Assembly (NCBI RefSeq): GCF_003688855.1
Contig: NZ_REFW01000001.1
Coordinates: 558,001-622,000 of the forward strand
Direction of reading: 5' to 3'
DNA: 64,000 nt
Origin: Tessaracoccus antarcticus
GTDB taxonomy: Bacteria > Actinomycetota > Actinomycetes > Propionibacteriales > Propionibacteriaceae
The notes below the pieces were generated by a model. That model had not been told where the DNA came from. It worked only from the letters and a program-made list of their open reading frames with translations, and did not search any database. A program made the position numbers and the translations under genes. Numbering within the stretch: position 1 is the stretch's first letter; each line of letters starts with the position of its first letter. Shown here one piece after another: positions 11,164 to 37,915 of this stretch.

Positions 11164-13989
11164 ATGACCACTGACACCCGCGGCGTGAGGGGTACCACCC
11201 GCCGATCAGTTGCCTCCCTCTCCGCTGTGATGCTGGCGCTCGGTTGGTGGACGCTGGGCACGTCGCCGGCGTTGGCGGATGGTTCCACCACCGTCGCCAA
11301 CACGACGAGCATCGACATCCCCGCGGCCGGCTCGGTGAATCAGCTCGGCCCCGCGAACCCGTACCCGTCCAGCATCCCCGTCGCCGGTCTGGGTGGTCTG
11401 GTCACCAACGTCACGGTGACCTTCACCAACCTCACCCACGGCTCGGTCGGCGACATCGATGCCATGCTCGTCGCGCCGTCGGGAGAGACGCTCGTCGTCA
11501 TGTCGGACGTCGGCGATCCCAGTGGCGAGTTCCCGGGCGCTCAACTGGTCACAGCCAACAACGTCAACCTCACGTTCTCCGACTCCGCAGCCGGACCGGT
11601 GCCCCGGGTGTTCATCCTGCCGGGCGGCACATACAAGCCGACCAACACCGGAGCTGGCGACGCCTTCCCGGCACCCGCCCCGACGCCGTCGAACGCGACC
11701 ACCCTGGCCGGGGCATTCACCGGCATCAACCCCAACGGTTCCTGGCAGCTCTTCGCCGTCGACGACGTGTCCGGTGAGACCGGCACGATGGCGGGTGGCT
11801 GGAGCCTGACGATCACGACCGCGACTTCGGCGGTCGCCACCTCCACCGCCGTGGTCACGTCCGGCACGCCGACCACCACGGGGGACCCCGTGACGTTCAC
11901 CGCCAGTGTCACAGCGGGTGGCACCCCTGCGACCGGCGGCTCTGTCCAGTTCAGCGACGGCAGCAGCAACCTCGGAGCCCCTGTTGCACTCAACGCCTCC
12001 GGGCAGGCGTCGCTGACCACCTCCGCCCTCTCCGAGGGCACGCACGACATTCGGGCAACGTTCAGCGGGGCCGCGGGCTTCCTGACCAGCAACGGAGCCG
12101 TCGCCCAACGCGTCGACAACGCAACCGTCGTGACGGGGAACACGTTCTGCAACGCGGGTACCATCACCGTCCCCAGCGTGGGTGCGGCCCAGCCGTATCC
12201 CTCGAACATCACGGTCTTCGGGTTGTCGGGCACCATCACCAAGGTCACCGCGAGCCTGAAGGGGCTTTCCCATCAGGCACCGATCGACCTCGACGTGCTG
12301 CTCTCGGGTCCCGCGCCCAGCACGAACCTCTTCCTGCTCAGCGACACGGGCGGCTTCAATCCGGTCAGCAATGTGGACGTGACGCTCGACGATGCGGCCC
12401 CGGCCGGTGTGTCGGCGCCCCTGGTCAGCGGCACCTTCCGGCCCACCAACGCTGATGACGGGTCCAACGACGTCATGCCGACGCCGGCACCGGCGCCGAG
12501 TTCTGCCACGGGGTTCTCGACGTTCAACGGGTCGGCTCCCAATGGCACGTGGAGCCTGTCGGTTGTCGACGATGCCTCCGGCGACTCCGGATCCATTGCG
12601 GGGGGATGGTGTGTCACGGTGACCACGCAGGCCGCGACGACAACCGTGCTGTCCGCGGCCCCCAGCCCGTCGATCCCGGGTCAACCAGTGACGTTCACCG
12701 CGGCCGTGGACGCAGGTGCCACCACGGTCAGCGAGGGATCGGTCTCCTTCAACCTCGACGGTGCCGTGGTGGACGCGGCCGTCAATCTTGTTGCCGGTCA
12801 CGCAACGTGGACCACGTCCACGCTCACGGCCGGAACCCACACCGTCGTGGCCACCTACAGCGGAACTGCCTCGTATGGTTCCAGCAGCGATGACCTCGAC
12901 CAGAGCGTGAACCCCGCTGCTGATGCCGGCGGTCCCTACACCGTGGGCGAGGGCGCTGAGGTGACACTCGACGGCTCAGGGTCCTCTCCCGGCATGACGT
13001 ACACGTGGGACGTCAACGGGGATGGCGTCTTCGGGGACGCATCAGGGAGCTCACCGACGCTGACGTGGGCGGAACTTGAGTCTATGGGCATCGACGACGG
13101 GCCCATGGTCCGTGCTGTGATGGTCAGGGTTTCCCAAGGGGGCCTCACCACCGATTCGGCAGCCACCACGCTGACAGTCGAGAACGCCGCACCGAGCGTG
13201 GCCATCACTGGTTCCCTGGCCGCCACGGTCGGCCTGCCGTTCTCACTCGTACTCGGAGCCGCGGACCCCTCATCGGTGGACATGGCGGCCCAGTTCACCT
13301 TCACGATCACCTGGGGTGACGGCTCGGCCATCGCCACGGTTGTGGGCCCCGCGGGCCAGTCCGTGACGCACACCTACATGGCCTCCGGCCCCCGCACCGT
13401 CTCGGTCACCGCGACGGACAAGGACGGCGGGAAGGGTTCCCCGGCATCGGCCGAGGTGACGGTCGCGACCGCACCGTCACCAAGCCCGACGCCCCCACCG
13501 AGCCCGAAGCCCTCACCGTCGCCGTCTGCCTCCCCGTCCCCGTCGCCGTCAGTCACGTCCGGCTCGGGCCCGACTGACCTGTATTCGACGCCGGGGTACC
13601 ACGACGTGAACGGCCGCACGTGGTTCACCACCTGCGAGCCGTATTCGCAGACCCTGCGGTGCCGGACGTCGATCTGGGCCACCCAGGTCTCCTACGTCAA
13701 CGGTGCCTTTCGGTCGAGCACGGGCTGGTACTTCAACAACCTGACGTACCTGCCCTCCATGAAGCGCTCCCAGTGGGCCGGGAACCCGCTCGGGCACGCG
13801 GGGGAGTGGACATCCACGCAGGGCCGCATGTGGCGCACCGAGTGCGACACTTTGGCCACGGGCGGAAATGGTTGCCGCAGTTTCATCCGGGCGCGCTACA
13901 TCGTCTCGAGCGTGGATGCACGCGGCAACCGCGCGTTCCAGTGGACGCACGGGTGGCTTTTCAACAGCATGGTGCGCTTCAGGCAATGA
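11164..13989 (+). CDS. Secreted multi-domain protein with P-domains, Ig-like/PKD repeats and C-terminal four-Cys module, 941 aa
   Basis: A Sec signal peptide (residues 1-38, basic TTRR then a hydrophobic core, ending PALA) exports this protein. In order there follow: a proprotein-convertase P-like domain (about 45-215; SVGDIDAMLVAPSGE, GINPNGSWQLFAVDD); an Ig-like repeat (about 220-315); a second P-like domain (about 325-490; NGTWSLSVVDDASGDSGSI); another Ig-like repeat; a PKD-like domain (ADAGGPYTV, WDVNGDGVFGD); a Pro/Ser linker encoded at 13474-13557; and a four-Cys module from residue 807. There is no protease catalytic domain, so it is more likely adhesive or structural. The start is the ATG at 11164 behind GGGAGGGGA, not the in-frame ATG at 11128. 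No LPXTG motif is present. Confidence 0.85.
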   Translation: MTTDTRGVRGTTRRSVASLSAVMLALGWWTLGTSPALADGSTTVANTTSIDIPAAGSVNQLGPANPYPSSIPVAGLGGLVTNVTVTFTNLTHGSVGDIDAMLVAPSGETLVVMSDVGDPSGEFPGAQLVTANNVNLTFSDSAAGPVPRVFILPGGTYKPTNTGAGDAFPAPAPTPSNATTLAGAFTGINPNGSWQLFAVDDVSGETGTMAGGWSLTITTATSAVATSTAVVTSGTPTTTGDPVTFTASVTAGGTPATGGSVQFSDGSSNLGAPVALNASGQASLTTSALSEGTHDIRATFSGAAGFLTSNGAVAQRVDNATVVTGNTFCNAGTITVPSVGAAQPYPSNITVFGLSGTITKVTASLKGLSHQAPIDLDVLLSGPAPSTNLFLLSDTGGFNPVSNVDVTLDDAAPAGVSAPLVSGTFRPTNADDGSNDVMPTPAPAPSSATGFSTFNGSAPNGTWSLSVVDDASGDSGSIAGGWCVTVTTQAATTTVLSAAPSPSIPGQPVTFTAAVDAGATTVSEGSVSFNLDGAVVDAAVNLVAGHATWTTSTLTAGTHTVVATYSGTASYGSSSDDLDQSVNPAADAGGPYTVGEGAEVTLDGSGSSPGMTYTWDVNGDGVFGDASGSSPTLTWAELESMGIDDGPMVRAVMVRVSQGGLTTDSAATTLTVENAAPSVAITGSLAATVGLPFSLVLGAADPSSVDMAAQFTFTITWGDGSAIATVVGPAGQSVTHTYMASGPRTVSVTATDKDGGKGSPASAEVTVATAPSPSPTPPPSPKPSPSPSASPSPSPSVTSGSGPTDLYSTPGYHDVNGRTWFTTCEPYSQTLRCRTSIWATQVSYVNGAFRSSTGWYFNNLTYLPSMKRSQWAGNPLGHAGEWTSTQGRMWRTECDTLATGGNGCRSFIRARYIVSSVDARGNRAFQWTHGWLFNSMVRFRQ
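13582..13986 (+). other. Four-Cys C-terminal module, copy A
   Basis: Residues 807-941 of the secreted protein. Landmarks are CEPYSQTLRCRT, IWATQV, GWYFNNLTYLP, QWAGNPLG, WRTECDTLATGGNGCRS and a closing GWLFNSMVRF. The four cysteines could form two disulfides outside the cell. The module is closely related to copy B (25670) and more distantly to copy C (37454). No family name known to me. Confidence 0.85.
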
Positions 13990-14145
13990 CGCGCCGGGTG
14001 GTCCGCCGGGGGCCGTGACGGGGCGGGTGCGCGCCCGCGATACGGTGTCGTCCGAAGCCCCCTCAGGGGTCCCGAACGTAGACGGAGACGCGAGATCCAC
14101 ACGGACACCCGCCGCCCGGGCCGCCGCCCACGACGGCTGCTGACG

Positions 14146-15159
14146 GTGACCACCACGGCCGGACTGGGCGTGTTGGGGGCCATCGCCGTTGCGGTGCTGG
14201 TCATCGGGTTCGGCGGTACAACGGCATCCTCCACCGTCGATGCGCCCGCGTCGGCCTCTTCCGCCACGTCGGACCCCACGGTCAGCCGGGCATCATCTCC
14301 GGCGGAGCCGTCAGCGGCGCACACGACGGCGACCGTGTCCGTTGACGGGTCCGCCATGGCGGCGCTGTCGGGTCTGGAGATCAAGGGGCGGGCTCCCAGG
14401 ACCGGTTACAGCCGGGACCGGTTCGGTGCCGCGTGGGCCGACGTCGACCGCAACGGCTGCGACACGAGGAACGACATCCTGCGTCGTGACCTGATGGATG
14501 CCCGCACCAGACCCGGATCCAACGGCTGTGCCGTGGCCCGGGGAACGCTGGCAGATCCGTACACGGGCACCACCATCGCGTTCATACGGGGAAGCGCCAC
14601 GTCCCAGGACATTCATGTGGACCATGTCGTCGCCCTGTCAGACGCATGGCAGAAGGGGGCACAGCAGTGGGACCAGGCGACGTTGACACACTTCGCCAAC
14701 GATCCGCTGAACCTTCTTGCCGTTGCGGGGACGGCGAACATGCAGAAGGGCGATGGTGACGCCGCCACCTGGCTGCCGCCGAACAAGTCGTACCGCTGTG
14801 ACTACGTGGCGCGACAGGTTGCGGTCAAGGCCAGGTATGGGCTGTGGGTGACAGGGGCTGAGTACGCAGCCATTGAGGACATCCTGCAGCGGTGCCCCGG
14901 CAAGGACCTGGTCACTTCGGCGGAACCCCCGAGGACCGATGACAGTATCGATGCCGTCGCGGCGCCGGAGGGCACCGCACCCTCCACCCCGGCGTCGACC
15001 ACAGTCTCCTCGCCAGCTGCGACGGGGACCCCCGCGGAAGACGTCTACTACGAGAACTGCGCCGCGGCGCGCGAAGCCGGCGCAGCACCACTGCTGCGTG
15101 GCGAACCCGGATACCGCTCCGCCATGGATGGTGACGACGACGGGATTGCCTGCGAGTGA
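14146..15159 (+). CDS. Secreted DUF1524/HNH-type nuclease with C-terminal Excalibur domain, 337 aa or longer
   Basis: An N-terminal hydrophobic segment ([20 protein letters not shown]) and a Ser/Ala-rich spacer lead into a GmrSD-C-terminal-like DUF1524 nuclease domain: [28 protein letters not shown] and [11 protein letters not shown], the His-rich centre of an HNH-type fold. A short linker follows, then an Excalibur calcium-binding domain ending [11 protein letters not shown]. It is probably an exported extracellular or surface nuclease. The start is uncertain. The GTG at 14146 has no ribosome-binding site and omits an upstream in-frame basic stretch (RRPGRRPRRLL) that would make a good signal-peptide n-region. 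Upstream in frame there is no ATG, GTG or TTG, but an ATC at 14095 lies 7 nt after GGAG. Confidence 0.85.
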
Positions 15160-15209
15160 GAGCGCGGGCACGCCGCTGCGGTGTGGTGTGGCGCGGTGGT
15201 GTCGGTTCT

Positions 15210-15237
15210 TTGACTTCGTTCCCGTGCGTTGTAGGTG
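15210..15237 (+). promoter_or_regulatory. Possible promoter of the phosphoketolase gene
   Basis: TTGACT at 15210-15215 and TAGGTG at 15232-15237 are separated by 16 bp, leaving a leader of about 45 nt before the ATG at 15290. The -10 match is weak. Confidence 0.3.
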
Positions 15238-15289
15238 CCGGGTGTTTGAATGGAAACGGCGGTACTCCAGACCAGCGGACAGGACATCC

Positions 15290-17803: not shown

Positions 17804-17806
17804 GCC

Positions 17807-18980: not shown

Positions 18981-19402
18981 CGCGTGCCGGAGTGCCGACG
19001 ACCTCGGCCGCGAGTCCACGGCGGAACAGGGCGGCGCAAATTGTGTGGTGGGGGTGACGTTCGACCTCGGGGAGATCTCGGGCAAGAACCAAGCTGATGT
19101 TCATGGTGAATGCCCTCGCCACCCCTGTGCTGATGCAGCCCACGGTGTGTCGGCGCCGAATACGGTCTGGGCACCTCGCGGCGTGGGGGCCGAGGCAACC
19201 GGGAAATCGCCGTGGGTCTCAGTCCGTAGACCGCCAGCGTGCAGCGGGAGGCCCGTGATAGGTTTTTGAAACGTTTTATCCGTGGACGGGGCACAGCCCG
19301 GTTGGTCGGCGTGACGTGTTCGGGGTGGTACTGAGGACGTACCAGTCACCCCACATCTGTGTCCGCTTTGCGACGTTGCCGTCGCGAACGAAAGGTTTCA
19401 CC
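18981..19402. other. Intergenic region between LacI gene and beta-galactosidase
   Basis: 422 bases without a credible gene. It contains the LacI-type operator near 19267 and the ribosome-binding site of the beta-galactosidase gene. I found no RNA gene, repeat or clear terminator in the first 280 bases. Confidence 0.6.
19267..19278. promoter_or_regulatory. LacI-type operator upstream of beta-galactosidase
   Basis: TGAAACGTTTTA, an imperfect palindrome centred on the CG typical of LacI-family sites, inside the AT-rich run TTTTTGAAACGTTTTATC that stands out in high-GC surroundings. It lies about 125 bp before the start codon. The adjacent LacI gene is the obvious candidate binder. Confidence 0.6.
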
Positions 19403-22400
19403 ATGCCCCCCGCATACGCGCCCCGCAGAAAACTGGTCGCTCTCCTGATCTCAGCAGCCCTGCTCTGGGTTCCCATGGCACCCGTGAGCCACGCCGCCCC
19501 CGGCGACCCGGTGGCCAACCCTGAGGTCACCGGCCAGGAATGGAGAACACCCGCTGTCGTTCGAGTGGGGCAGACGCCGGCCCGGAGCGTCATGATTCCC
19601 TTCGACACCGTCGGAGACGCCAAAGCGAACCCTGACCTGCACTCCGCCGAGCGGGCATCGACGAACGCCACACTTCTCAACGGCACGTGGAAGTTCAACT
19701 ACGTCCAAGCACCCGCCGACAAGCCCGAACTGGCCGGCGTGACTGCCATCCCTGACGAGGGTTACCAGGACATCATGGTGCCCTCCAGTTGGCAGGTGGC
19801 CGGCAAGTACGCCGGTGCTCTGGGCACCGACTACCCCATTTACAACAACCAGGACTACCCGTTCCAGGCCTCCGGTGGCGGTATCGCCAGCCAGGGAGAC
19901 TTCGAGGCTGCCCAAGCGCCCACCACGTTCAATCCCGTGGGCACCTACATGCGCATGCTTGACCTGACTGCCGACGAGATCGCGGGCAACCGCCAGATCC
20001 TGAGCTTCCTGGGGGTCGAGGCCGGCTTCTACCTCTACGTCAACGGCGCCGTCGTCGGCTACGGGGAGGACAGCTTCAGCACGTCGGAGTTCGACATCAC
20101 CGACTACGTGCACGAGGGCACCAACCACATCGCAGTCCAGGTCTACCGGTGGACCACGGGCAGTTTCCTCGAAAACCAGGATGGGCTCGACTTCGGTGGA
20201 ATCCACCGGGACGTGGTCCTGACCGTCCAGCCGAAGGCGTCGATCTACGACTACAACGTGGAGACCACCTTCGCCAACCACGACTACTCGTCCGCCAGGG
20301 TCGCGGTTCGCTCCGACATTGCCAACACCGGTGATGCGGCGCAGACACGGATCGTCAGGACCCACCTTTTCGATGCCAGCGGCAATGAAGTCAAGGTGCA
20401 GGCGTCGCCGCCGTTGACGGTGGCACCGGGCACCACCGGCTCGGTCACAACGGAGATCGTTCTCGCCAATCCCTCACTGTGGTCCGCGGAAGTCCCCAAC
20501 CTGTACACCGTCGTCCTGGAACTGACGGACACTGCAGGTGCCTCGATCCAGTCCATGGGCAAGCGCGTCGGCATCCGCGAGTTCTACATGGCAGACGCGG
20601 GTACCACCGACTCGACGTCGAACATGCGCATCAACGGCCAGAACATCGAGTTCTACGGCGTGAACCGGGGCGAGAACGACCCCGCCCACGGCCACCACGT
20701 TCCGTACGAGATGATCGTGAAGGACGTCCAGAACGCCAAGCAGCTCAACATGAACGCCATCCGGACCAGCCATTTCCCGCCTGACCCCCATCTGCTGGAC
20801 CTGGCCGACGAGTATGGGATCTACGTCATGGACGAGGTCAACGTGGAATCGCACAATGGCCGCGACGGCATCAACAACACCCCGTTCTCCATCGATCCAA
20901 GCCTGACCAGCCGCGACTTCCCCGGCAATGACAGCCGCTACACCGAATCCATGCGCCAGCGAATGGAAAGCATGGTGCAGCGCGACAAGAGCCACGCGAG
21001 CGTGTTGATCTACTCCCTCGGCAATGAGGCCGGCACCGGTCCCAACTTCGAGACGATGATGGATGTCATCAAGGAACTCGATGGCGAGAAGCTCATCCAC
21101 TACCAGGGTGACAACGGCAACCCACGGGTGGACATGATCGGTGCCATGTACCCGCCGTACGACCAGGCGAACCGGCCCGATTCCCGCAAGCCGTTCATCA
21201 TGATGGAGTACCAGCACTCCATGGGTAACACCGGCGGGGAGCTCAAGCGCTACACCGACCTCATGGAGGGCTCCTACCGCCAGCAGGGCGGCTTCATCTG
21301 GGACTACGTCGACCAGTCGGCCCTGACGCTCAAGCCGGGCGTTGACCCGGGCGGTGACATCACCCGCGACGACCTCTTCTACGGCATGGACGGCAGTTGG
21401 CCCCAGGTCTCCGGCGACGGGAACTTCCTCATGAACGGGCTCATCTTCCCGGACCGCACATGGCAACCTGAGGCCTACGAGGTGCGCCAGCAGTACCAGG
21501 ACATCAAATTCACCCAGACACCGACGCAGGGCACTGCCCAGCAGGTGACGATGGTCAACCTCAACCGATTCAAGAACGCCAACCACTACGACATCGTCTG
21601 GTCACTGCAGGAGGATGGCGCCACCATCCAGAGCGGGACGTTCACCGACGCGGAGGCCAGCCTTGCGGCCCCCACCGGCAACGTGAACGCCGGCTCGACC
21701 AGGACCCTGACGGCTCCCTACGTTCTTGATGCCCCCAAGGCGGGTGCGGAGTATTTCCTCCTCGTTGAGTACAAGCTGAAGGCGGACGCACCGTACGCCG
21801 ACAAGGGCTACGTCCAGGGCAGCGCACAGTTCCTGATCGGCGCCGTGGGTCAGGACCAGAACATCGATCCCACGGCCGTCCCGCCGTCGAGCACCCAGGA
21901 CCTGCACGACGCCGTCGTCGTTGAGGGCGAGACACCGAGCGGTGAGGAGTTCTCCGTATCCGTGGACAAGACCACGGGACTTCTGGACGCCTACGTCGTC
22001 GGCGGTCGGGACCTCATATCCAAGGCGCCCGTCGGCTCCTTCTTCCGGGCCGAGACGGACCAGTCGAGCGCTGTGAAGGGCAACGCCCACACCACGAATG
22101 CGGCCGAGGCCTACCAGGGCTGGCTTGACCAGGGCGAGAACGCGACTGACGTCAAGGTGAACGTACTGACTGCCATCGATGGCGTCTCGCGCATCGTCGT
22201 CAACTCGACGCTGCGCAACGGCAGCGCCTTCTCGACCGCGTACACCGTGCACACAGACGGCACGATCGCCGTCGCCGCCAAGCTCGTCCCGTCTGCCGGT
22301 GCACCCGACCAACTGGGCGAGTTCGGCATGATGATGCAGGTCCCCAGTGCTTTCGAGAACGTCTCCTGGTACGGCCGCGGGCCCGCGGAGACCTACTGGG

Positions 22401-25400
22401 ACCGCAAGGAGGGTGTGAAGGTCGGCGTCTGGAACGGGACGGTCACGGACCAGTTCGTGCCGTACGAGCGGGTCCAGGAGAACGGCAACAAGACCGATGT
22501 CCGGTGGCTCGCGCTCACGAACGACGCCGGTGATGGCCTGCTTGCGTCAATGAACTACGGTCCCGGTTACTCCGGCGATCCCCTGGAAGCGGTGGCGTTG
22601 CACTACACCCCGAAGGCCTTGTCGTCGTACAACTCCAAGATCCTCTACCCGTTCCAGGCCCAGAAGACCGACGACGTGGTGCTGCGGCTGCTGAAGCACC
22701 AGAAGGGTGTCGGCAACCTCGACTGGGGTTCCGAGCCGCCCACGGCGGTCCTCCCGAAGAGCGACGCCGCCAACCAGAGCTACTCCTACATGTTGCGACC
22801 ACTGACCGCAGGCACGGATCCGATGGCACTGTCCAAGGAGATCTACCCCGAGCCTGCCTTCCCGATGCTCGATGCGATCACGATCGACGGTATGCCATTG
22901 ACGGGTTTCCAGCCCGAAAAGTTCGCCTACGACTACACGCTGCCCGACTACTACCCCTCGGCCCGGGTGCCCGTGGTGGCTGCCACGGCCCCCGAGGGCG
23001 CGACGGTGACCATCGAGCAGCCGGGCTCCACTCCCGGCACCGCGGTTCTCCACGTGATGGTGGGATCCTCGACCGTTGACTACGTGGTCGACATCACGCC
23101 GGGAGCGGCACCCAAGCCGACCATCCAGATCCCCGACATCGTCCAGGTCCCCGGGAGCATTTCCGGCTCTGGGCGCTACACCGTCGGTATGGCCGGTGTC
23201 GGTGACCTCCTCTACGCCTACAGCGGCTACGCAGGGATCGGGGAGAACGTCAGCGGCACCGGTGCTGCGCTCCAGACGGCCAGTGGATTCCACGACAAGG
23301 GCTTCCAGGGCAACGCCGAGCAGATCATGGACATCGACATTTCCGCCTATGCGGCGAAGTCGTTCTCTGGTGTGGGAGGAATCGACCCGTCCAAGTGGGC
23401 CGGCTCCGGTGCCACTCGTTCCTCGATCATTTTCGAGGTCTGGGCCCACAAGGATGTCAGTGAACTGGATGCCGACTACTACGAGCCGATGGCCCCCGGG
23501 GCCGCGGGTACCGGAACCATCGTCACCAACGGGTGGACCAAGCTGGCGTTCAGCCCGGTGCAGACCGGCAAGAAGGACTTCACGTTCAGCGACATTGCGC
23601 TCACCTATGACGACAACGGCGTCCCGAAGCGCTACCAGGCGCTCCGTCTGGTGATGAACGCCAACGGGGACAATGGTCACGACCAAGGCGTGTGGGGAGA
23701 TCCCAGAATTGGACTCGACGTGCCCGCCGACCCGGAACTCCGCTCCATCCGCCTCGACGGCGCCCCGCTGCCCGGCTTCTCGACGGACGTGCACGACTAC
23801 ACGGTGGTGCTCGCCAGCGGAGCCCGTACGCCGGTCGTCTCGGTCGACCATGACGCCGGTATCTTCGTGCACGCCAACCAGGCCACGGGTGTCCCCGGCA
23901 CCGCCACGGTTCTGGTCGCCTTGGATGACTACCGTATCGAGTTCGCCCGGGCCACCGCGCCCGCGGGTCAACTGGTCAACCTCGGTGACATGGTCACGGC
24001 CCCGGCCTTCACGGTGGACGGCCAGGACCAGTCCTCGGTGCTCAACGGCAACCTCGTCTACGTCTACAGCGGCGACGGCACGGTCCGCGTCGACAAGGGC
24101 GCGGGCGCGCTGCCCGGTCTCACGCTTCGGCAGAGCGGCCGCGGCGACGCCGCTGTCATCAAGGAGTACGCCCACGGCGTGGCCGGATCGGCGCAACAGG
24201 TGTTGGACATCGACATCTCGCACCGGGATGCCCTGCGCTTCACCGCAGACGTTGGTGTGGACTGGGCCCTTGAGCCGGACTCCGCTGAATCCTCGGCCGG
24301 GCCAACGGTTCGCTTCGAGGTGTGGGCGCGTCAGGATGCCAGCACACTCACCAACGGCTACTACTCCGCAGCCAACCCTCAGCCCACGGGCGGTGGCCTG
24401 CCGACCGATGGCTGGGTGAAGCTGGGAACGTCTCCGGTCATGTCCAACTGGAATCACTCGGGCGAGCTTGAGGTCCAGCGGGATCTTCACCACTTCGATC
24501 TCGACCTCACCCATGTCGATGCCGACGGCACCCTGATGTCCTACGGGGCGGTGCGTCTGGTGATGGACCCCGTCGACGGCGACATCGCTGGCGACCACGG
24601 TGTCTGGGGCGACCCGCAGGTCACCTTCCTCGGTGATGTGATCAACGAACCGGTGGACGTGACCAGACTGACCGCCACGGTGGAGCCCGGCAAGGTCTCC
24701 GTGGGCTACCTCCTCGGCACCGGCAGGGCCGAGGGTGTGATCCGCAGCATCGCCGTGGCCTACGACGAGCAGAACCGGGTCCTCGGTGACAACGAGGCCA
24801 GGTTCGATGCGTCGGACGGCAACCAGGACGGCGACCTGCCCATCCAGTTGCCCGAAGGCACGCAGGCGGCTGCCGTGCAGTACCTCCTGATCGACGAGGC
24901 AACACTGCATCCGTTGACGGGGGCATGGAACCTTGAGCCTGTCAGCTCCGACGGAGTGTTCACGCACGAACCCCTCCGTGAGGTCCTGCCAGCATCCGAT
25001 CCCCAATTCGACGTCTCGTTCGATCCGACGACGCAACTGGTCACGCTGACTGGTGCCGGTTTCTCGCCGCGCTCGGTCATCGTGGTCGAGGGGACCATTC
25101 GGGGTTCCGACGGGTTGGACCACATCGCCCTCGTCACCGTGGACGCACGAGGGGTGCTGAGCCACAGCTATCCGTCGGCGGCCACGACGCTCGAGGACGT
25201 CCGGGTTCGCATCGGTGGACAGGGCTTTGACGACATCCTGTCGTTCCGTGTCTCCGTGCCGGTCGACTCGGTGTCCGTCTCGGGAACCGGAGTGGTGGAC
25301 GGGGCGGCCGACCTTCTCGTCGGCGGGGTTCTGGCCCTCACTGCTGCCGTGCTTCCCGAGGACGCATCGGATGCCGGCGTCACCTGGTCCAGCAGTGACA

Positions 25401-26074
25401 CCGGTGTCGCAAGCGTCGACGATGCCGGGACAGTGACGGCCAGGAGTGTGGGTACAGCCGTGGTCACCGCCACGGCCAAGGACGGCTCCGGCGCGGCGGC
25501 TGCGGTGACCATCCGGGTGACCCCGGTGGTGACACCGACACCGACGCCGACCGTCACGCCGACGCCCACCGTCACGCCAACACCGAAGCCCACGGTCACG
25601 CCAACGCCAACGCCCACGGTCACGCCAACGCCGAAGCCCACGGTCACGCGGAAGCCGGCTGTGGCCCCCTACGAGGTACCGGGGTTCCACCTCATCAATG
25701 ACCGGTCCTGGTACACCACGTGCGAGACGTACTCGCAGACAATCCGTTGCCGCACGGACATCTGGGCCACCCAGGTGAGCGTCGTCAACGGTGCATACGT
25801 GTCCCGGACAGGGTGGTACTTCAACAACCTCACCTACCTGCCCCACATGACGCGCGCCCAGTGGGCGGGCAACCCCCTGGGGCGCTCCGGCAACTGGAGC
25901 ACCGCGGATGGCCGGAAGTGGCGCACGGAATGCGACACGGCGGCGACGGGGGCCAATGGCTGCCGGAGCTACATCTGGGCCACCTACGTCGCGGGGACCA
26001 GAGGCGCTGACGGCGTGTGGCGCTACGGGATGACGCAGGGCTGGTTGTTCAACAACATTGTCCGTTTCACATGA
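19403..26074 (+). CDS. Giant secreted multimodular beta-galactosidase (GH2), 2223 aa
   Basis: A signal peptide (residues 1-32, ending SHAAP) exports a LacZ-type GH2 enzyme that hydrolyses beta-galactosides outside the cell. The sugar-binding domain (LLNGTWKFNYV) is followed by the catalytic barrel with NGQNIEFYGVNRGENDP, acid/base Glu542 in SLGNEAG and nucleophile Glu602 in MMEYQHSMGN, then the LacZ C-terminal domain (WYGRGPAETYWDRKEG). Beyond about residue 1150 are cadherin-like/Ig spacers, two related NPCBM-like modules (about 1240-1440 and 1520-1745), a BIG2 domain (TWSSSDTGVASVD), a Thr/Pro linker and the four-Cys module. The start is the ATG at 19403 (GAAAGG upstream); an in-frame ATG at 19316 would precede the signal peptide. 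Probably LacI-controlled. Confidence 0.93.
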   Translation: MPPAYAPRRKLVALLISAALLWVPMAPVSHAAPGDPVANPEVTGQEWRTPAVVRVGQTPARSVMIPFDTVGDAKANPDLHSAERASTNATLLNGTWKFNYVQAPADKPELAGVTAIPDEGYQDIMVPSSWQVAGKYAGALGTDYPIYNNQDYPFQASGGGIASQGDFEAAQAPTTFNPVGTYMRMLDLTADEIAGNRQILSFLGVEAGFYLYVNGAVVGYGEDSFSTSEFDITDYVHEGTNHIAVQVYRWTTGSFLENQDGLDFGGIHRDVVLTVQPKASIYDYNVETTFANHDYSSARVAVRSDIANTGDAAQTRIVRTHLFDASGNEVKVQASPPLTVAPGTTGSVTTEIVLANPSLWSAEVPNLYTVVLELTDTAGASIQSMGKRVGIREFYMADAGTTDSTSNMRINGQNIEFYGVNRGENDPAHGHHVPYEMIVKDVQNAKQLNMNAIRTSHFPPDPHLLDLADEYGIYVMDEVNVESHNGRDGINNTPFSIDPSLTSRDFPGNDSRYTESMRQRMESMVQRDKSHASVLIYSLGNEAGTGPNFETMMDVIKELDGEKLIHYQGDNGNPRVDMIGAMYPPYDQANRPDSRKPFIMMEYQHSMGNTGGELKRYTDLMEGSYRQQGGFIWDYVDQSALTLKPGVDPGGDITRDDLFYGMDGSWPQVSGDGNFLMNGLIFPDRTWQPEAYEVRQQYQDIKFTQTPTQGTAQQVTMVNLNRFKNANHYDIVWSLQEDGATIQSGTFTDAEASLAAPTGNVNAGSTRTLTAPYVLDAPKAGAEYFLLVEYKLKADAPYADKGYVQGSAQFLIGAVGQDQNIDPTAVPPSSTQDLHDAVVVEGETPSGEEFSVSVDKTTGLLDAYVVGGRDLISKAPVGSFFRAETDQSSAVKGNAHTTNAAEAYQGWLDQGENATDVKVNVLTAIDGVSRIVVNSTLRNGSAFSTAYTVHTDGTIAVAAKLVPSAGAPDQLGEFGMMMQVPSAFENVSWYGRGPAETYWDRKEGVKVGVWNGTVTDQFVPYERVQENGNKTDVRWLALTNDAGDGLLASMNYGPGYSGDPLEAVALHYTPKALSSYNSKILYPFQAQKTDDVVLRLLKHQKGVGNLDWGSEPPTAVLPKSDAANQSYSYMLRPLTAGTDPMALSKEIYPEPAFPMLDAITIDGMPLTGFQPEKFAYDYTLPDYYPSARVPVVAATAPEGATVTIEQPGSTPGTAVLHVMVGSSTVDYVVDITPGAAPKPTIQIPDIVQVPGSISGSGRYTVGMAGVGDLLYAYSGYAGIGENVSGTGAALQTASGFHDKGFQGNAEQIMDIDISAYAAKSFSGVGGIDPSKWAGSGATRSSIIFEVWAHKDVSELDADYYEPMAPGAAGTGTIVTNGWTKLAFSPVQTGKKDFTFSDIALTYDDNGVPKRYQALRLVMNANGDNGHDQGVWGDPRIGLDVPADPELRSIRLDGAPLPGFSTDVHDYTVVLASGARTPVVSVDHDAGIFVHANQATGVPGTATVLVALDDYRIEFARATAPAGQLVNLGDMVTAPAFTVDGQDQSSVLNGNLVYVYSGDGTVRVDKGAGALPGLTLRQSGRGDAAVIKEYAHGVAGSAQQVLDIDISHRDALRFTADVGVDWALEPDSAESSAGPTVRFEVWARQDASTLTNGYYSAANPQPTGGGLPTDGWVKLGTSPVMSNWNHSGELEVQRDLHHFDLDLTHVDADGTLMSYGAVRLVMDPVDGDIAGDHGVWGDPQVTFLGDVINEPVDVTRLTATVEPGKVSVGYLLGTGRAEGVIRSIAVAYDEQNRVLGDNEARFDASDGNQDGDLPIQLPEGTQAAAVQYLLIDEATLHPLTGAWNLEPVSSDGVFTHEPLREVLPASDPQFDVSFDPTTQLVTLTGAGFSPRSVIVVEGTIRGSDGLDHIALVTVDARGVLSHSYPSAATTLEDVRVRIGGQGFDDILSFRVSVPVDSVSVSGTGVVDGAADLLVGGVLALTAAVLPEDASDAGVTWSSSDTGVASVDDAGTVTARSVGTAVVTATAKDGSGAAAAVTIRVTPVVTPTPTPTVTPTPTVTPTPKPTVTPTPTPTVTPTPKPTVTRKPAVAPYEVPGFHLINDRSWYTTCETYSQTIRCRTDIWATQVSVVNGAYVSRTGWYFNNLTYLPHMTRAQWAGNPLGRSGNWSTADGRKWRTECDTAATGANGCRSYIWATYVAGTRGADGVWRYGMTQGWLFNNIVRFT
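25531..25650 (+). repeat. Tandem repeat coding a Thr/Pro linker
   Basis: Degenerate tandem units of about 24 bp (core CCCACGGTCACGCCAACGCC) encode TPTPTVTPTPKPTV-type repeats between the BIG2 domain and the four-Cys module. Repeat number is likely variable between strains. It is in frame, so expansion changes only linker length. Confidence 0.85.
25670..26071 (+). other. Four-Cys C-terminal module, copy B
   Basis: Last 134 residues of the beta-galactosidase: WYTTCETYSQTIRCRT, IWATQV, GWYFNNLTYLP, QWAGNPLG, WRTECDTAATGANGCRS and GWLFNNIVRF. Cysteine spacing and most aromatic residues match copy A at 13582. Confidence 0.87.
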
Positions 26075-33247: not shown

Positions 33248-33253
33248 GCCCCC

Positions 33254-33281: not shown

Positions 33282-33386
33282 ATAGATGTTTGACGCAGCC
33301 CGTGCGCGTCACCCAAGTGCAGCACGTCAGGGCCCCACGTTCGGCGGTGCATCCCCACGGATGGGTTGCCCGGCCAGCGGAAATAG

Positions 33387-33428
33387 TTGACACGTCATCC
33401 ACATGACACTAAAGTAAGTGACACGTCA
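33387..33428 (+). promoter_or_regulatory. LLM-pair promoter with two MarR operators
   Basis: -35 TTGACA (33387-33392), 17-bp spacer and -10 TAAAGT (33410-33415) form a near-consensus promoter. TGACACGTCA occurs at 33388-33397, covering the -35, and again at 33419-33428 over the transcript start; the two are 31 bp apart (three helical turns). The same architecture precedes yceI. Confidence 0.8.
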
Positions 33429-33476
33429 CCAATTCACCTGGTGGCGGTTGACCATCACACTTCCCGGAGGCCCAGC

Positions 33477-34628
33477 ATGCAGATCGGCATCTTCAGCGTC
33501 GGCGACGTCACCACCGACCCCACCACAGGCCGCACCCCGACCGAATTCGAGCGCATCCAGGCCCAGGTCGAGATCGCGAAGAAGGCCGAGGACATCGGCC
33601 TGGACGTCTTCGCGACCGGTGAGCACCACAACCCGCCCTTCATCTCGTCGGCCCCGACGACGACGCTGGCATGGATCGGAGCGCAGACGAAGAAGATCAT
33701 CCTCTCGACCGCCACGACGCTCATCACCACCACGGACCCCGTGCTGATCGCGGAGGACTACGCGAAGCTGCAACACCTCTCCGGTGGCCGCGTCGACCTC
33801 ATGATGGGTCGCGGCAACACCGGGCCCGTCTATCCCTGGTTCGGCAAGGACATTCGCCAGGGCATCAACCTGGCCATCGAGAACTACGCACTGCTGCACC
33901 AGTTGTGGCGCGAGGACGTCGTCACCTGGAAGGGCCGGTTCCGTACCCCCCTCCAGGGATACACGTCCACGCCGCGCCCGCTGGATGGCGTCCCCCCGTT
34001 CGTGTGGCACGGTTCCATCCGCAGCCCCGAGATTGCCGAGCAGGCCGCGTTCTACGGAGACGGCTACTTCCACAACCACATCTTCTGGCCCTCCAGCCAC
34101 GCCGGACAGATGATCCGCCTCTACCGTGAGCGGTGGGAGGCGCACGGTCACGGCCCCTCTGACACCGCCATCGTGGGCCTGGGCGGCCAGTTCTTCATGC
34201 GCAAGAACAGCCAGGATGCCTGGAACGACTTCCGTCCCTACTTCGACAACGCTCCGGTCTACGGACACGGCCCGTCGCTGGAGGACTTCACGAAGGCCAC
34301 CCCGCTGACCGTCGGCTCGCCCCAGCAGGTGCTGGAGCGGACCCTGTCGTTCCGCGACTACGCCGGCGACTACCAGCGCCAGCTGTTCCTGCTCGACCAC
34401 GCCGGCCTGCCGCTCAAGACGGTCCTCGAGCAACTGGACCTGCTGGGCGAGATCCTGCCGGAGATGCGCAAGGGCTTCGCCGAGGGGCGTCCCGCCCACA
34501 TCCCGGATGCACCGACCCACGCTTCGATGGTCGCCAGAGCAGGGGGCGCCAAGGACTCCACGGTCTACGCCGCAGCCGACGCTGCGACCGGACACCGCGC
34601 CGAGGACGCACTGCAGGTGTCGGCATGA
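33477..34628 (+). CDS. LLM-class flavin-dependent monooxygenase, CE1758 family, 383 aa
   Basis: Bacterial-luciferase-like TIM-barrel oxidoreductase using reduced flavin and O2. The N-terminus MQIGIFSVGDVTTDP, FATGEHHNPPF, KLQHLSGGRVDLMMGRGN and the C-terminal LFLLDHAGLPLKTVLEQLD fit the CE1758-type subgroup, which is encoded next to a small flavin reductase, as here. It starts at the ATG at 33477 after CCCGGAGG; the open frame before it is promoter DNA. The stop overlaps the next gene's ATG by four bases. The native substrate is unknown. Confidence 0.9.
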   Translation: MQIGIFSVGDVTTDPTTGRTPTEFERIQAQVEIAKKAEDIGLDVFATGEHHNPPFISSAPTTTLAWIGAQTKKIILSTATTLITTTDPVLIAEDYAKLQHLSGGRVDLMMGRGNTGPVYPWFGKDIRQGINLAIENYALLHQLWREDVVTWKGRFRTPLQGYTSTPRPLDGVPPFVWHGSIRSPEIAEQAAFYGDGYFHNHIFWPSSHAGQMIRLYRERWEAHGHGPSDTAIVGLGGQFFMRKNSQDAWNDFRPYFDNAPVYGHGPSLEDFTKATPLTVGSPQQVLERTLSFRDYAGDYQRQLFLLDHAGLPLKTVLEQLDLLGEILPEMRKGFAEGRPAHIPDAPTHASMVARAGGAKDSTVYAAADAATGHRAEDALQVSA

Positions 34629-35242
34629 CCTCGCTCGCCGTCGTTTCCGCTGGCCTGTCCACTGCCTCATCAACCCGGCTCCTGGCCAACACCCTCACCG
34701 CCGCCACCGTCGAGTCGCTCGGTGAGGTGGAGGTCACCACCATCGAGCTGCGCGACCTCGCCCACCAGCTCACCGACCACATGCTCACGGGATTCCCGGG
34801 AGTCAAGCTCGGTGAGGCGATCGAGGCGATACGTCGCGCAGATGGCATCATCGCCGTGACCCCGGTCTTCGCGGCCTCGTACTCGGGCCTGTTCAAGACA
34901 TTCTTTGATGTGCTCGACGAGGGGGTTCTGGACGGCAAGCCCGTGCTGGTGGCCGCCACCGCCGGTACCGCGAGACACTCGCTCGTGCTCGACCACGCGC
35001 TGCGTCCCCTGTTCTCCTACCTGCACGCCGTAGTGGTGCCCACCGGGGTCTTCGCAGCCATCGACGATTTCGGCGACGAAGGTCTCGAGCGCCGGGCCGC
35101 ACGGGCCGCAGGTGAACTGGCGGAACTCATGGGCAAGGCGCCGTCGGCCACCAGCACTGCTGGCGCCCGCCGCACGGTCGAGGATGAATTCGCCGCACCG
35201 ACCCCTTTTCACCAGCTGCTGCGCCAGGCCAGCGGCACCTGA
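34625..35242 (+). CDS. NAD(P)H-dependent FMN reductase, CE1759 family, 205 aa
   Basis: Flavodoxin-like reductase expected to supply reduced flavin to the adjacent LLM monooxygenase. It shows VVSAGLSTASSTRLLANTL (phosphate loop region), AIRRADGIIAVTPVFAASYSGLFK and DGKPVLVAATAGTARHSLVL. It starts with ATGA overlap with the monooxygenase, giving a coupled two-component pair. Its expression should follow the MarR-controlled promoter at 33387. Confidence 0.9.
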   Translation: MTSLAVVSAGLSTASSTRLLANTLTAATVESLGEVEVTTIELRDLAHQLTDHMLTGFPGVKLGEAIEAIRRADGIIAVTPVFAASYSGLFKTFFDVLDEGVLDGKPVLVAATAGTARHSLVLDHALRPLFSYLHAVVVPTGVFAAIDDFGDEGLERRAARAAGELAELMGKAPSATSTAGARRTVEDEFAAPTPFHQLLRQASGT

Positions 35243-35264
35243 CGCCGGGGGATACTGCAGGCGG

Positions 35265-35530
35265 TCACCGCGGCCCCGGGTCCTGCTTCCAGAACGGCGC
35301 CTTGGCCGGGATGAGGGGCAGGCTGGAGCGGACCCGACCGAAGCGGTCGTCCTGCCGGGCCCAGGAGGCGTATGCACTGTCGATCTCCGCCCGCGTCCGG
35401 GCCACGAAGTTCCACCACGTCATGATGGTTCCTCGAAGGGCTCTCCGCCCAGCAGTACCACCCGGGATGGTTCCGGCACGTCCAGCAACAGCTCGTTCCG
35501 GACGCGGCCAAGGTAACCGAGCTTCCCGTC
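35265..35530 (-). pseudogene. Remnant of a pirin-family gene (C-terminal fragment, frameshifted)
   Basis: Reading the minus strand, one frame gives GYLGRVRNELLLDVPEPSR followed by VVLLGGEPFEEP, and a shifted frame continues MTWWNFVARTRAEIDSAYAS to WARQDDRFGRV and stops near 35265. Joined, these are the C-terminal part of a pirin-like cupin (LLGGEPFEEPIMTWWNFVA is its hallmark). The frame breaks near 35430-35437, where about one base is missing, and the N-terminal two-thirds are gone: a stop precedes the fragment near 35535. A decayed gene; the surrounding 35243-35739 holds nothing else I can name. Confidence 0.75.
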
Positions 35531-35682
35531 CGCTCATCGGTTCTCCTCGGTCGCCGGGTGGTGAGCGCAGCTCGCTCGCCGGTGGTGTGCGCGTTGCAGG
35601 AGAATTGTCGCTGAGACTCACGCGCCCGTCGACCTCCGCACGGATCGTGCAGGAGCAAAGGGTGTGATCGGGACAGGTCGAA

Positions 35683-35716
35683 GGGGGCCGTCCCAGCAGA
35701 TGCTGGAACGGCCCCC
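35683..35716. terminator. Hairpin terminator downstream of yceI
   Basis: GGGGGCCGT and CCAGCA arms (35683-35698) pair with TGCTGG and ACGGCCCCC (35701-35716), with a small internal loop. It lies 24 bases after the yceI stop on the minus strand. Confidence 0.7.
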
Positions 35717-35739
35717 TGACGAATGCCTCAGCCGACGGG

Positions 35740-36306
35740 TCAGGCGTTCTTGATTGCGGAGACCTCGAACTCGAGGGTGATCTTGTCGCTGACCAGCACG
35801 CCGCCGGTCTCGAGCGCAGCGTTCCAGGTCACGCCGTAGTCCTTCCGGTTGATCACCACTGAGCCCTCGAAGCCGGCGCGCAGGTTACCGAAGGGGTCGG
35901 TGGCAGTGCCCTCGAAGTCAAAGGGGATGGTGACGGAGTTGGTCGTGCCCTTGATCGTCAGGTCGCCGGTGAGCTCCAGGCTGGTGTCGCTGGTGCGGGT
36001 GACCCGGGTGGAGACGAAGGTGATTTCCGGAAACTCGTCCATGGCGAGGAAGTCGTTGCTGCGCAGGTGGCCGTCGCGCTGCTCGTTGCGGGTGTCGATG
36101 CTGGTGGCCTGGATGGTCAGGGTGGCGATGGACTTGGAGAAGTCCCCCGCGTCCACGACCACGGTTCCCTCGAACTCGTTGAAGGCGCCTCGGACCTTTG
36201 TGACCATCGCGTGGCGTGCGGTGAAGCCGATCTGGGTGTGCGACGGGTCGATGGTCCAGGTGCCGGAGAGCTCATCGAGCTGGGCGAGAGTGATGGTGGT
36301 GGTCAT
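35740..36306 (-). CDS. YceI-family lipocalin-like protein, 188 aa
   Basis: YceI proteins form a lipocalin-like barrel that binds polyisoprenoid or other hydrophobic molecules. The family pattern is clear: GTWTIDPSHTQIGFTARHAMVTKVRGAF, IDTRNEQRDGHLRSNDFLAMDEFPEITF, LTGDLTIKGTTNSVTIPFDF and RKDYGVTWN (segments shown without the joins). There is no signal peptide, so this copy is probably cytoplasmic, as in many actinobacteria. Its promoter copies the MarR-box geometry of the LLM pair, which places it in the same stress regulon as WrbA and the monooxygenase. Confidence 0.93.
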   Translation of the reverse strand: MTTTITLAQLDELSGTWTIDPSHTQIGFTARHAMVTKVRGAFNEFEGTVVVDAGDFSKSIATLTIQATSIDTRNEQRDGHLRSNDFLAMDEFPEITFVSTRVTRTSDTSLELTGDLTIKGTTNSVTIPFDFEGTATDPFGNLRAGFEGSVVINRKDYGVTWNAALETGGVLVSDKITLEFEVSAIKNA

Positions 36307-36340
36307 GAGTGCTCCTCAGGGGTTGGGGTGGCCAAATTGA

Positions 36341-36382
36341 TGACGTGTCACTTACTTTGCACCAAACTGTATGACATGTCAA
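36341..36382 (-). promoter_or_regulatory. yceI promoter with two MarR operators
   Basis: On the minus strand, -35 TTGACA (36382-36377), 17-bp spacer and -10 CAAAGT (36359-36354). TGACATGTCA (36372-36381) covers the -35 and TGACGTGTCA (36341-36350) covers the start, again 31 bp apart. The bases AAAGTAAGTGACACGTCA are identical to the LLM-pair promoter. Confidence 0.8.
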
Positions 36383-36534
36383 CTAGTACACGTCGGCGTG
36401 TCACCCACACACCATCGTTTCCGGTACCGCGCCGTCTCCACACCGGAGGCTAGGGTGTGACGTGAAACATGCATCAGCGAAGTCCTCACCCGGCTGGCGG
36501 TGGGGACGGAACCCCGACGAACCAGGAGCGGACC

Positions 36535-36840
36535 ATGGCGGTTTGTGACACATGCGGCAATGATGACCAGAACGCTTTCAGCATCACGCGCGGATCGGAC
36601 ACAGGGACGTTCGACAGCTTCGAGTGCGCCATTCACACCATGGCATCGCGCTGCGAGACGTGTGGTTGCCGCATCCTCGGCCACGGCGTGGAACGCAACG
36701 GCACCCTCTACTGCTGCGCACACTGTTCCCAGCAGGCAAGCGCCGCGGCGCAGCCCGCACCGTCGGCCCCAGTCATCGCCTCCGTTCCCGACAAGCAAGT
36801 GTCCCGGTGGAAGGACGACGGCGGAGCCATCTCGTCCTGA
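36535..36840 (+). CDS. Small Cys-rich metallothionein-like protein, 101 aa
   Basis: Metal-binding protein candidate: CDTCGN at residues 4-9, FECAIH, CETCGCRILGHGVE and YCCAHC supply nine cysteines plus histidines within about 65 residues, as in the 'prokaryotic metallothionein' group of actinobacterial proteins. The C-terminal third is a Pro/Ala-rich flexible tail. The start is the ATG at 36535 after CCAGGAGCGG; an earlier in-frame ATG at 36469 lacks a ribosome-binding site. It converges on the NlpC/P60 gene with a strong shared terminator between. A zinc role is inferred from composition only. Confidence 0.8.
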   Translation: MAVCDTCGNDDQNAFSITRGSDTGTFDSFECAIHTMASRCETCGCRILGHGVERNGTLYCCAHCSQQASAAAQPAPSAPVIASVPDKQVSRWKDDGGAISS

Positions 36841-36933
36841 ATATCCTGCTGGAAGCAGTCACCCACCACACCGTGCGCCTCCTCCACCGGCAGCCAACGT
36901 CACGGACCTCACCATGATCGGTGACCACAGTGA

Positions 36934-36966
36934 AGAACCGCCCCCGGAATGTCCGGGGGCGGTTCT
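36934..36966. terminator. Bidirectional terminator between convergent genes
   Basis: Perfect 15-bp stem AGAACCGCCCCCGGA / TCCGGGGGCGGTTCT (36934-36948 with 36952-36966), 3-nt loop, followed by CGTTGT. It serves the metallothionein-like gene and the convergent NlpC/P60 gene. Confidence 0.88.
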
Positions 36967-37000
36967 CGTTGTGCTGGGGGGTCCTTGGGGCCCCGAGGGG

Positions 37001-37915
37001 TCAGCCGACGCGGGCGCCGCCGGAGAAGGGCATCGAGTCCACCGATGCGACGCGGACGCCGCTGCGCGGGTTGGCCGCGTCGACGATCTTGCCGTTGCCG
37101 ATGTAGATGCCCACGTGGCTGATGGGGCTGTAGTAGAACACCAGGTCGCCCGGCTGAAGGTTGCTCCTCGAGACCCGCGTGCCCATGGACGACTGGGTGC
37201 GCGAGCTGTGGGGAAGCGTGATGCCTGCCTGCTTGTAGGCGTAGGCGGTCAGCCCTGAGCAGTCGAAGGAGCTGGGACCGGAGGCGTTGTGCACGTACCG
37301 GCTGCCGACCTTGGCCAGCGCGGCGGAAACGATCTTCTGCTTGGAGGACCCGGTGGCGGCCGCAGCCGCCTTCGCGACGGACTGCTCCACGGGCACATTG
37401 GCCAGCTTCGGGGCGGCGGCGGGAATGGTCGTCACGGCCGCGACGGCGGAGCTGCTGAACTGCACGATGTTGTTGACGACCCACTTCTTGCCGGTGAGCG
37501 CGTAGGAGCGGCAGCCGCCCAGGCCCGTGGCGGCGGTGTCGCACTCGGTCTTCCACTTGCGGCCGTCGGAGGCGGTCCAGGTCCCCTTGTGGCCGAGTGG
37601 GTTCTTCGCCCAGGCGGCGCGGGAGGAGGGGAGGTAGGTGAGGTTGTTGAAGACCCAACCCTTGTGTGACACGTTGGCGCCGCCGGACTTCACGATCTTG
37701 GTGGTCCAGATCTTCGTCTCGCACCGTACGACGGAGGAGGAGTACTTCTCGCAGGCGGTCTTCCAGTAGCGGCCGTTGACGAGGTGGTCGCCGGGCTGCG
37801 AGTAGACCTTGGCCTGCGAGGATGACGTGTTCGCGTGAGCGGCGTTCGAGGGGACCAGAGCGAGGGTGACCCCCATGAGTGCTGCCATGAGTGCTGGCAG
37901 GATGCGCTTCAACAT
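37001..37915 (-). CDS. Secreted NlpC/P60 peptidoglycan hydrolase with N-terminal four-Cys module, 304 aa
   Basis: A signal peptide (residues 1-28, ending AAHA) is followed by a four-Cys module (38-153), an Ala/Pro linker and an NlpC/P60 cysteine peptidase domain (190-304). Catalytic Cys219 lies in SSFDCSGLTAYAY, His in PISHVGIYIGNG and a polar third residue near NPRSG. Such enzymes cut peptide crosslinks (typically D-Glu-mDAP or relatives) in cell wall. The start is the ATG at 37915; the upstream frame to 37963 precedes the signal peptide. The module being N-terminal here suggests a targeting or binding role rather than a sorting signal. Confidence 0.92.
   Translation of the reverse strand: MLKRILPALMAALMGVTLALVPSNAAHANTSSSQAKVYSQPGDHLVNGRYWKTACEKYSSSVVRCETKIWTTKIVKSGGANVSHKGWVFNNLTYLPSSRAAWAKNPLGHKGTWTASDGRKWKTECDTAATGLGGCRSYALTGKKWVVNNIVQFSSSAVAAVTTIPAAAPKLANVPVEQSVAKAAAAATGSSKQKIVSAALAKVGSRYVHNASGPSSFDCSGLTAYAYKQAGITLPHSSRTQSSMGTRVSRSNLQPGDLVFYYSPISHVGIYIGNGKIVDAANPRSGVRVASVDSMPFSGGARVG
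37454..37804 (-). other. Four-Cys module, copy C (N-terminal in NlpC/P60 protein)
   Basis: Residues 38-154: YWKTACEKYSSSVVRCETK, IWTTKI, GWVFNNLTYLP, WAKNPLG, WKTECDTAATGLGGCRS and WVVNNIVQF. All four cysteines and the FNNLTYLP core match copies A and B; the stretch before the last aromatic strand is shorter. Confidence 0.83.

Follow-up and report, generated by a model that had tools for sequence, protein, structure and literature searches.

What do three exported proteins encoded in one stretch of the Tessaracoccus antarcticus genome have in common, when they share a module of ~134 residues that belongs to no named family? The stretch, referred to below as the window, comprises 64,000 nucleotides (contig NZ_REFW01000001.1, positions 558,001 to 622,000), and the module is found in a P-domain protein (copy 1), a beta-galactosidase (copy 2) and an NlpC/P60 peptidase (copy 3). 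A first-pass annotation, made from the letters alone, had seen in it a mobile wall- or glycan-binding unit. From sequence and genome comparison we infer, as regards location, binding and ligand, that the module is probably a surface-retention domain, which would hold its proteins, without a covalent bond, on some part of the envelope of the cell that makes them.

The genome (3.65 Mb in 13 contigs) was searched with copy 2, and a profile was then run over all open reading frames (ORFs) of the stretches around the matches. Copy 2 gave 65 matches at E values up to 10, of which 61 were at 1e-5 or better (best 9e-94); together with the profile scores, this search excluded a chance similarity of the copies. 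The profile matched 65 ORFs, 58 of them over nearly the whole module (80 bits or more and at least 90 of the 132 profile positions) and 7 falling below this cut-off. Near-complete copies were always located at one end of the protein: 39 were C-terminal, 19 lay no further than residue 130 of the open frame and none was found elsewhere. The C-terminal copies end 1-4 residues before the stop codon in 38 cases and 12 residues before it in the remaining one, and 26 of the 39 are preceded by a 40-residue stretch in which Pro, Thr or Ser make up 40% or more. In a tree of the 58 modules, the N- and C-terminal types cluster yet are mixed, with 7 changes of type, only one of which is forced.

Some copies are damaged. 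L081, one of the 58, represents the greater part of a module broken by a frameshift; together with L082, L089, L069 and L096 (frame 3560), it belongs to a group of fragments or frameshifted copies, possible pseudogenes or sequencing errors. In L096 frame 3560, which is below the cut-off (78.1 bits, 103 positions), the module covers residues 209-299 of a 534-residue frame; this seemingly internal copy fits the N-terminal type, as a signal-peptide-like stretch lies directly upstream.

A signal-peptide-like N-terminus was recognised by a crude script in 43 of the 58 proteins, compared with 31 of 440 controls (further ORFs of 250 residues or more, antisense frames included). When the 15 proteins missed by the script were inspected by eye, 11 more were added, which brings the count to 54 of 58; the remaining four have uncertain or frameshifted starts. 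These numbers support the view that the module is carried by exported proteins. One alternative is that a specialised machine for export or attachment recognises the module as a signal for sorting or processing, much as with the type IX secretion C-terminal domain; the 39 of 58 copies at the extreme C-terminus as well as the gain or loss of the whole set (see below) are in line with this. However, 19 of 58 copies stand near the N-terminus behind a signal peptide, which is incompatible with a C-terminal processing signal, and the module is a folded domain with conserved cysteines; we consider this explanation very unlikely. Membership of the type IX-like sorting domains, which are always C-terminal, was rejected on account of the same 19 copies. 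These copies and the lack of a membrane helix also bear out the view, already taken in the first-pass annotation, that the module is not a classical sorting signal.

The proteins that carry the module were examined by a Pfam scan of the three window proteins and of 50 further partner parts out of the 58. A family was found for all three window proteins and for 33 of the 50 others. With the C-terminal type, the partners include enzymes acting on glycans (pullulanase, glycoside hydrolases (GH) of families GH2, GH3, GH10, GH20, GH26 (two), GH35, GH84, GH101 and GH123, and a BNR sialidase-like protein), and also PIG-L, two subtilases, a 5'-nucleotidase, an endonuclease/phosphatase fold, an esterase and alpha/beta hydrolases, M23, CAP and Ig domains. 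With the N-terminal type, they are NlpC/P60, DPBB, a YkuD L,D-transpeptidase, an RPF-like transglycosylase, M15, a polysaccharide deacetylase, two C5-epimerase-like proteins and LRR. When proteins were searched with the N-terminal type, 123 homologues were obtained, 120 of them listed; among these, the module stands at the N-terminus in 98, at the C-terminus in 21 and elsewhere in one, and 95 have a Pfam domain, which for 86 of the 95 (hand count) is NlpC/P60, YkuD, RPF-like, DPBB or M23. Unlike the one-copy rule of Tessaracoccus antarcticus, two tandem modules were observed in three L,D-transpeptidases of other genomes (P0009, P0010 and P0011), again among the 120 of 123 listed. The search with the C-terminal type gave 192 homologues, and the partners of the 120 of 192 listed are very mixed.

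As glycoside hydrolases, proteases, a nuclease and peptidoglycan enzymes act on unrelated things, a common substrate is unlikely. The module might nevertheless bind glycans of outside origin, such as host mucin, and deliver the enzymes to nutrients or the cell to a host. Glycoside hydrolases are numerous among the partners, several belong to families involved in mucin breakdown (GH101, GH123, GH20, GH84, GH2, GH35 and BNR), and the module has many conserved Trp and Tyr residues. However, it is also carried by subtilases, by the nuclease and the nucleotidase and by peptidoglycan-type enzymes acting on the cell's own wall, and it trades places with an LPxTG-like tail, as described below. This explanation is therefore judged unlikely. 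Since peptidoglycan-type enzymes carry the module, the receptor is likely to be part of the producing cell's own envelope.

The architecture of the module was deduced from an alignment of 31 modules of the Tessaracoccus antarcticus genome (30 loci from the genome search and copy 3). It contains 29 invariant columns, among them C18, C27, C88, C98, R12, W14, T16, W49, N52, N53, W65, R82, W84, T86 and N128; C98 is only nearly invariant across 81 modules from several species. Each module has two conserved cysteine pairs and a conserved W-x-T that is present twice. It consists of two halves that repeat each other (HHalign probability 98.2, E 2.7e-14, 39% identity over 46 columns), a repeat absent from the first-pass annotation. 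The four conserved cysteines, which had been assigned to two disulfides, probably do form them. Structure models of copies 2 and 3 were confident; that of copy 2 is all-beta, and both are all-beta or nearly so and dominated by strands. Foldseek searches of the PDB with both models gave weak matches only (template modelling score about 0.2), mostly OB-like proteins, and a search of viral models with the copy 2 model, with a second look by VIA-align, likewise gave weak matches only. The fold may be new, although we do not take weak structural matches as a claim of a new fold.

No known domain matched the module above noise in Pfam, NCBIfam and PDB sequence searches, and it was not described in a literature search confined to open-licence PubMed Central (PMC) papers. 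When 81 modules were compared with Pfam at E values up to 10, with filters that drop most matches above about 0.1, 13 weak families appeared, the best being DUF6607 (E 0.0019, in 2 of 81 modules) and thaumatin (E 0.0048, in 3 of 81). The description of the module as unnamed was thus upheld by the Pfam, NCBIfam and PDB checks.

The internal repeat recalls the dockerins, which occur one per protein, at either end, with duplicated halves and in tens per genome, and which have a helical fold. The module could accordingly be a docking unit that plugs into a cognate receptor on a scaffold, as dockerin does into cohesin, and builds a multi-enzyme complex at the surface. Its usual single copy per protein, placement at either end, dozens of copies per genome and two-fold repeat agree with such a role, as does the presence or absence of the set as a whole. 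On the other hand, the all-beta model differs from the helical calcium-binding repeats of dockerin, no Pfam dockerin match was obtained with the 81 modules, peptidoglycan-type enzymes carry the module too and three homologues have two copies. Membership of the dockerins was rejected, and a docking function appears quite unlikely.

Outside Tessaracoccus antarcticus, the module has a narrow distribution. A scan of a named genome collection with two peptide patterns detected 314 encoding stretches, and the 79 loci kept all come from Tessaracoccus (rhinocerotis, bendigoensis, massiliensis, coleopterorum, lapidicaptus and sp. OS52), Arachnia, Propionibacterium or Propionibacteriaceae records. Organism names shown among the matches listed in the two protein searches are all Tessaracoccus, Arachnia or Propionibacteriaceae. 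At the family level, the module was present in 15 of 198 genomes and in one of 29 genera (Tessaracoccus/Arachnia), and outside this genus 391 genomes sampled from the order and 396 from the phylum (partly overlapping sets) gave no convincing module. Three matches outside the genus (G262, G081 and G419) were incomplete, had E values of 0.003-0.009 and in two cases contained stops; they were dismissed as noise. A phage origin was also discarded, as two peptide patterns retrieved no relative from viral contigs. The first-pass annotation had suggested testing whether the module is confined to exported proteins of related actinobacteria: exported hosts are supported, and "related actinobacteria" is too wide, as only some members of a single genus were found to have it.

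Of the 39 genomes of this genus, 15 were positive, with 67, 65, 59, 50, 48, 48, 43, 42, 37, 36, 29, 16, 16, 11 and 1 matches (fragments counted). Hence 14 genomes have 11-67 matches and 24 have none. The sole copy of the single-copy genome (G019:C62:22994-23398), whose sister on the rpoB tree is a genome without the module, may be a remnant or a stray contig. The rpoB tree comprised 34 genomes, 12 of them with at least 11 matches; the single-copy genome was scored as lacking the module and five genomes had no rpoB match. On this tree the module label changes 5 times, 4 of which are forced by supported branches, and a single clade was rejected (approximately unbiased test, p-AU 7.5e-60). G048 (0 matches) is sister to G008 (50 matches; support 90/83), G023 (0) is sister to G022 (11; support 99/98), and G016, G021 and G052 (0) are nested among module-rich species. 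This patchy, nearly all-or-nothing pattern indicates that whole sets were gained or lost together, the tree being compatible with either direction. It also suggests that the set depends on one ligand which some species lack, perhaps a wall glycopolymer.

To what does a module-bearing protein correspond in a species that lacks the module? The genus was searched with the 5'-nucleotidase of Tessaracoccus antarcticus including its module, and some of the 36 matching genomes matched through the module or a part only. The 30 nucleotidase loci returned all have the catalytic part and were treated as orthologous without a gene tree. At the C-terminus, 11 have the module, 17 an LPxTG-like tail and 2 neither. 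All 11 module-ended nucleotidases come from genomes with at least 16 matches, while 15 of the 17 LPxTG-like ones, and also the 2 of the neither type, come from module-less genomes. The tail consists of [LP]PxTG followed by 1-4 residues, so it is too short for a membrane helix. The endonuclease was matched in 28 genomes of the genus, 13 module-rich and 15 others. An in-frame module was present in 8 of the 13 (in G020 the last part is out of frame, and in G013 the gene is split between contigs) versus none of the 15, and the G008 locus has a full module in a second open frame. The 15 other nucleases have a strict LPxTG-like end (7), a PGLP-type tail (6) or neither (2). In two exported enzymes, the module occupies the position that in most relatives without it is taken by a terminal LPxTG-like tail devoid of a helix.

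PGLPxTGx can form the extreme C-terminus of exported proteins in the genus, with no membrane helix or charged tail (for example the nucleotidase ORFs L271, L274-L277 and L280-L290). In the 39 genomes, the corresponding DNA pattern, PGLPxTGx followed by a stop, gave 180 matches compared with 3 for the reversed control, with the reading frame unchecked and TGG allowed to pass. An LPXTG motif without a membrane span and charged tail is also described (PMC5527093) for DsA1 of Propionibacterium acnes, a member of the same family. RPF proteins were considered as a further case of exchange and rejected: in the four genomes in which both forms were recognised, the module-bearing RPF is an extra paralogue (the gene was recognised in 19 of 29 loci).

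Several observations weigh against surface retention by the module in place of the tail. The module-bearing genomes G022 (11 matches) and G015 (16 matches) retain the LPxTG-like tail on their nucleotidase. The nuclease loci of four module-rich genomes (G022, G059, G056 and G060) have no module at all. Three of the module-rich nuclease matches (G050, G056 and G060) have no more than 36-39% identity and are possible paralogues. By the PGLPxTGx pattern, module-rich genomes do not differ significantly from the others in the number of LPxTG-like tails (mean 2.6, n=14, vs 5.7, n=25; p 0.125, a trend only), and the tail, which lacks the membrane helix, is itself no more than a putative anchor. Sortase genes are present in 39 of 39 genomes and are not fewer in module-rich ones (42 in 14 vs 51 in 25, hand tally), so the module does not replace sorting as a whole. 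Finally, no ligand-synthesis gene was seen in the few loci examined, a small part of the genomes. No partner gene stood out near the modules, and the loci around one sortase were alike in module-rich genomes and in the module-less G048.

Partners with unrelated substrates, one cellular place, mostly one copy per protein, placement at either end and exchange with an anchor-like tail together argue for surface retention rather than substrate binding.

The spread of the module inside the genome left traces in the DNA. The last 489 coding bases of the nuclease gene (L080:2254-5145, minus strand) and of an ORF of 612 residues (L085:6683-8518, plus strand) are 96.9% identical. The match extends from ~100 bases upstream of the module to 66 downstream, with no similarity between the partners; on the sequence, it is a recent cassette transfer or conversion. 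The pullulanase gene and that of the window P-domain protein are 82% identical over 497 bases, again with unrelated partners, and two adjacent genes have modules that are 99.5% identical and partners that are 37% identical. Near-identical linker and module DNA on unrelated partners indicates that the module travels as a cassette of ~0.5 kb, by copying or gene conversion. The mobility claimed earlier is supported by module DNA 97% identical in one pair with unrelated partners and 85% in a second.

Under the surface-retention hypothesis, the proteins would be exported by means of their signal peptide, with the module at one protein end, in many cases separated from the partner by a Pro/Thr/Ser linker, or else immediately after the signal peptide. 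Outside the cell, this beta module with its double repeat would fold, probably braced by two disulfides, and would attach by non-covalent binding to an envelope component of the same cell, either a wall polymer or peptidoglycan. Enzymes of nutrient use and wall turnover could in this way be kept at the surface, the module taking the role of the short LPxTG-like C-terminal tail of module-less relatives, while copying of the ~0.5-kb DNA cassette onto other genes would have multiplied it in the genome.

More tentatively, and with rather less confidence than one would need to assert it, the module could be an orphan domain, possibly with a new fold, that became a general surface-display tag in part of the genus, with ~60 proteins of a genome able to carry it, a set that comes and goes as a whole through its dependence on one wall ligand lacking in some species, and repeated trading with an older, odd LPxTG-like end-tag devoid of a membrane helix. 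If the surface-retention hypothesis is right, a new family would join the few routes of surface retention in Gram-positive bacteria, and an orphan domain with no detectable ancestor would have multiplied into tens of copies. Because one enzyme has different ends in different species, and close relatives have either 50 copies or 0, it would be possible to study directly how a bacterial surface changes its anchoring system and on which ligand this depends. Surface display would also profit from a single folded tag that functions at either end.

The features of the window are collected in Table 1. Translation placed copies 1 and 2 where the first-pass annotation had put them, on the plus strand, and the motifs quoted there were found. 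The three copies are 55-65% identical in pairs. Copy 3 does stand at the N-terminus of the NlpC/P60 protein, directly behind the signal peptide, but it is encoded on the minus strand only, the plus-strand translation of 37454-37804 being noise. In the alignment, copy 3 is without the long last hairpin of copies 1 and 2. One listed homologue, also of 304 residues, is 100% identical to copy 3 over the module. Between two module genes, an ORF without the module (14146-15159, plus strand) has GmrSD_C nuclease-like and C-terminal Excalibur domains. Two adjacent large ORFs of 827 and 1409 residues (589-3072 and 3069-7298, plus strand) had no Pfam match at E 0.001.

Table 1. Module copies, linkers and host proteins in the window (pLDDT, predicted local distance difference test; pTM, predicted template modelling score).
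Feature	Coordinates	Strand	Basis or remark
Exported protein with P-domains, Big_3_5 and PKD domains, C-terminal module	11128..13989	+	Translation, Pfam scan
Pro/Ser-rich linker preceding copy 1	13471..13581	+	Read from translation
Module copy 1, C-terminal, runs to stop codon	13582..13986	+	Alignment; profile 1-132, 206.8 bits
Exported LacZ-type (GH2) beta-galactosidase with NPCBM and Big_2 domains, C-terminal module	19316..26074	+	Likely start ATG 19403, from the predicted signal peptide
Thr/Pro linker preceding copy 2	25520..25669	+	Read from translation
Module copy 2, C-terminal	25670..26071	+	Profile 204.9 bits; model pLDDT 93.0, pTM 0.78
Copy 2, first internal repeat, residues 10-55, cysteines 18 and 27	25697..25834	+	HHalign
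Copy 2, second internal repeat, residues 80-131, cysteines 88 and 98	25907..26062	+	HHalign
Exported NlpC/P60 (C40) peptidase, N-terminal module, 304 residues from likely start (ORF to 37963)	37001..37915	-	Pfam scan
Module copy 3, N-terminal, shorter last hairpin	37448..37810	-	Alignment; model pLDDT 90.7, pTM 0.73
NlpC/P60 catalytic domain	37034..37306	-	Pfam scan, residues 220-310, E 1.4e-24

How does the module compare with known systems of surface attachment? It shares with the LPXTG sorting signal its position in homologous proteins and presumably the same job; however, it is a folded domain of ~134 residues and not a short tail. The signal is defined by LPXTG followed by a hydrophobic helix and a positively charged tail at the C-terminus; membership was rejected, since in the C-terminal copies only 1-4 residues (once 12) follow the module, with no helix or sortase motif. 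The SLH domain has a helical fold, with three helical repeats, at variance with our strand-dominated models, and no PF00395 match was obtained with the 81 modules; CWB2 was likewise set aside, as no PF04122 match was found and the module is one unit of two halves. Both families are modules common to several unrelated surface proteins and attach to wall polymers (PMC5817068), and the module is likewise common to several unrelated exported proteins; they usually comprise three repeats, of ~90 residues each in CWB2.

A further parallel described in PMC5817068 is WxL, a C-terminal domain of similar size on exported proteins that are retained non-covalently at the surface. It is defined there by two W-x-L motifs, the distal one YxxxLTWxLxxxP, within the last 120-190 residues. 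Size, exported hosts, C-terminal placement and, as we suppose for the module, non-covalent holding are common to both. However, the module also occurs near N-termini and has four cysteines, WxL comes from another phylum, the 13 families matched by the 81 modules do not include PF13731 and the motif is W-x-T instead of W-x-L, so that membership was rejected. LysM, the SH3 types, GW, PGB, CWB1, CW-7, SPOR and ChW were discarded in the same way, none being among these 13 weak families. As no wall-attachment domain in Table 1 of PMC5817068 is among the Pfam matches of the 81 modules, the module would represent a new family of a known functional kind.

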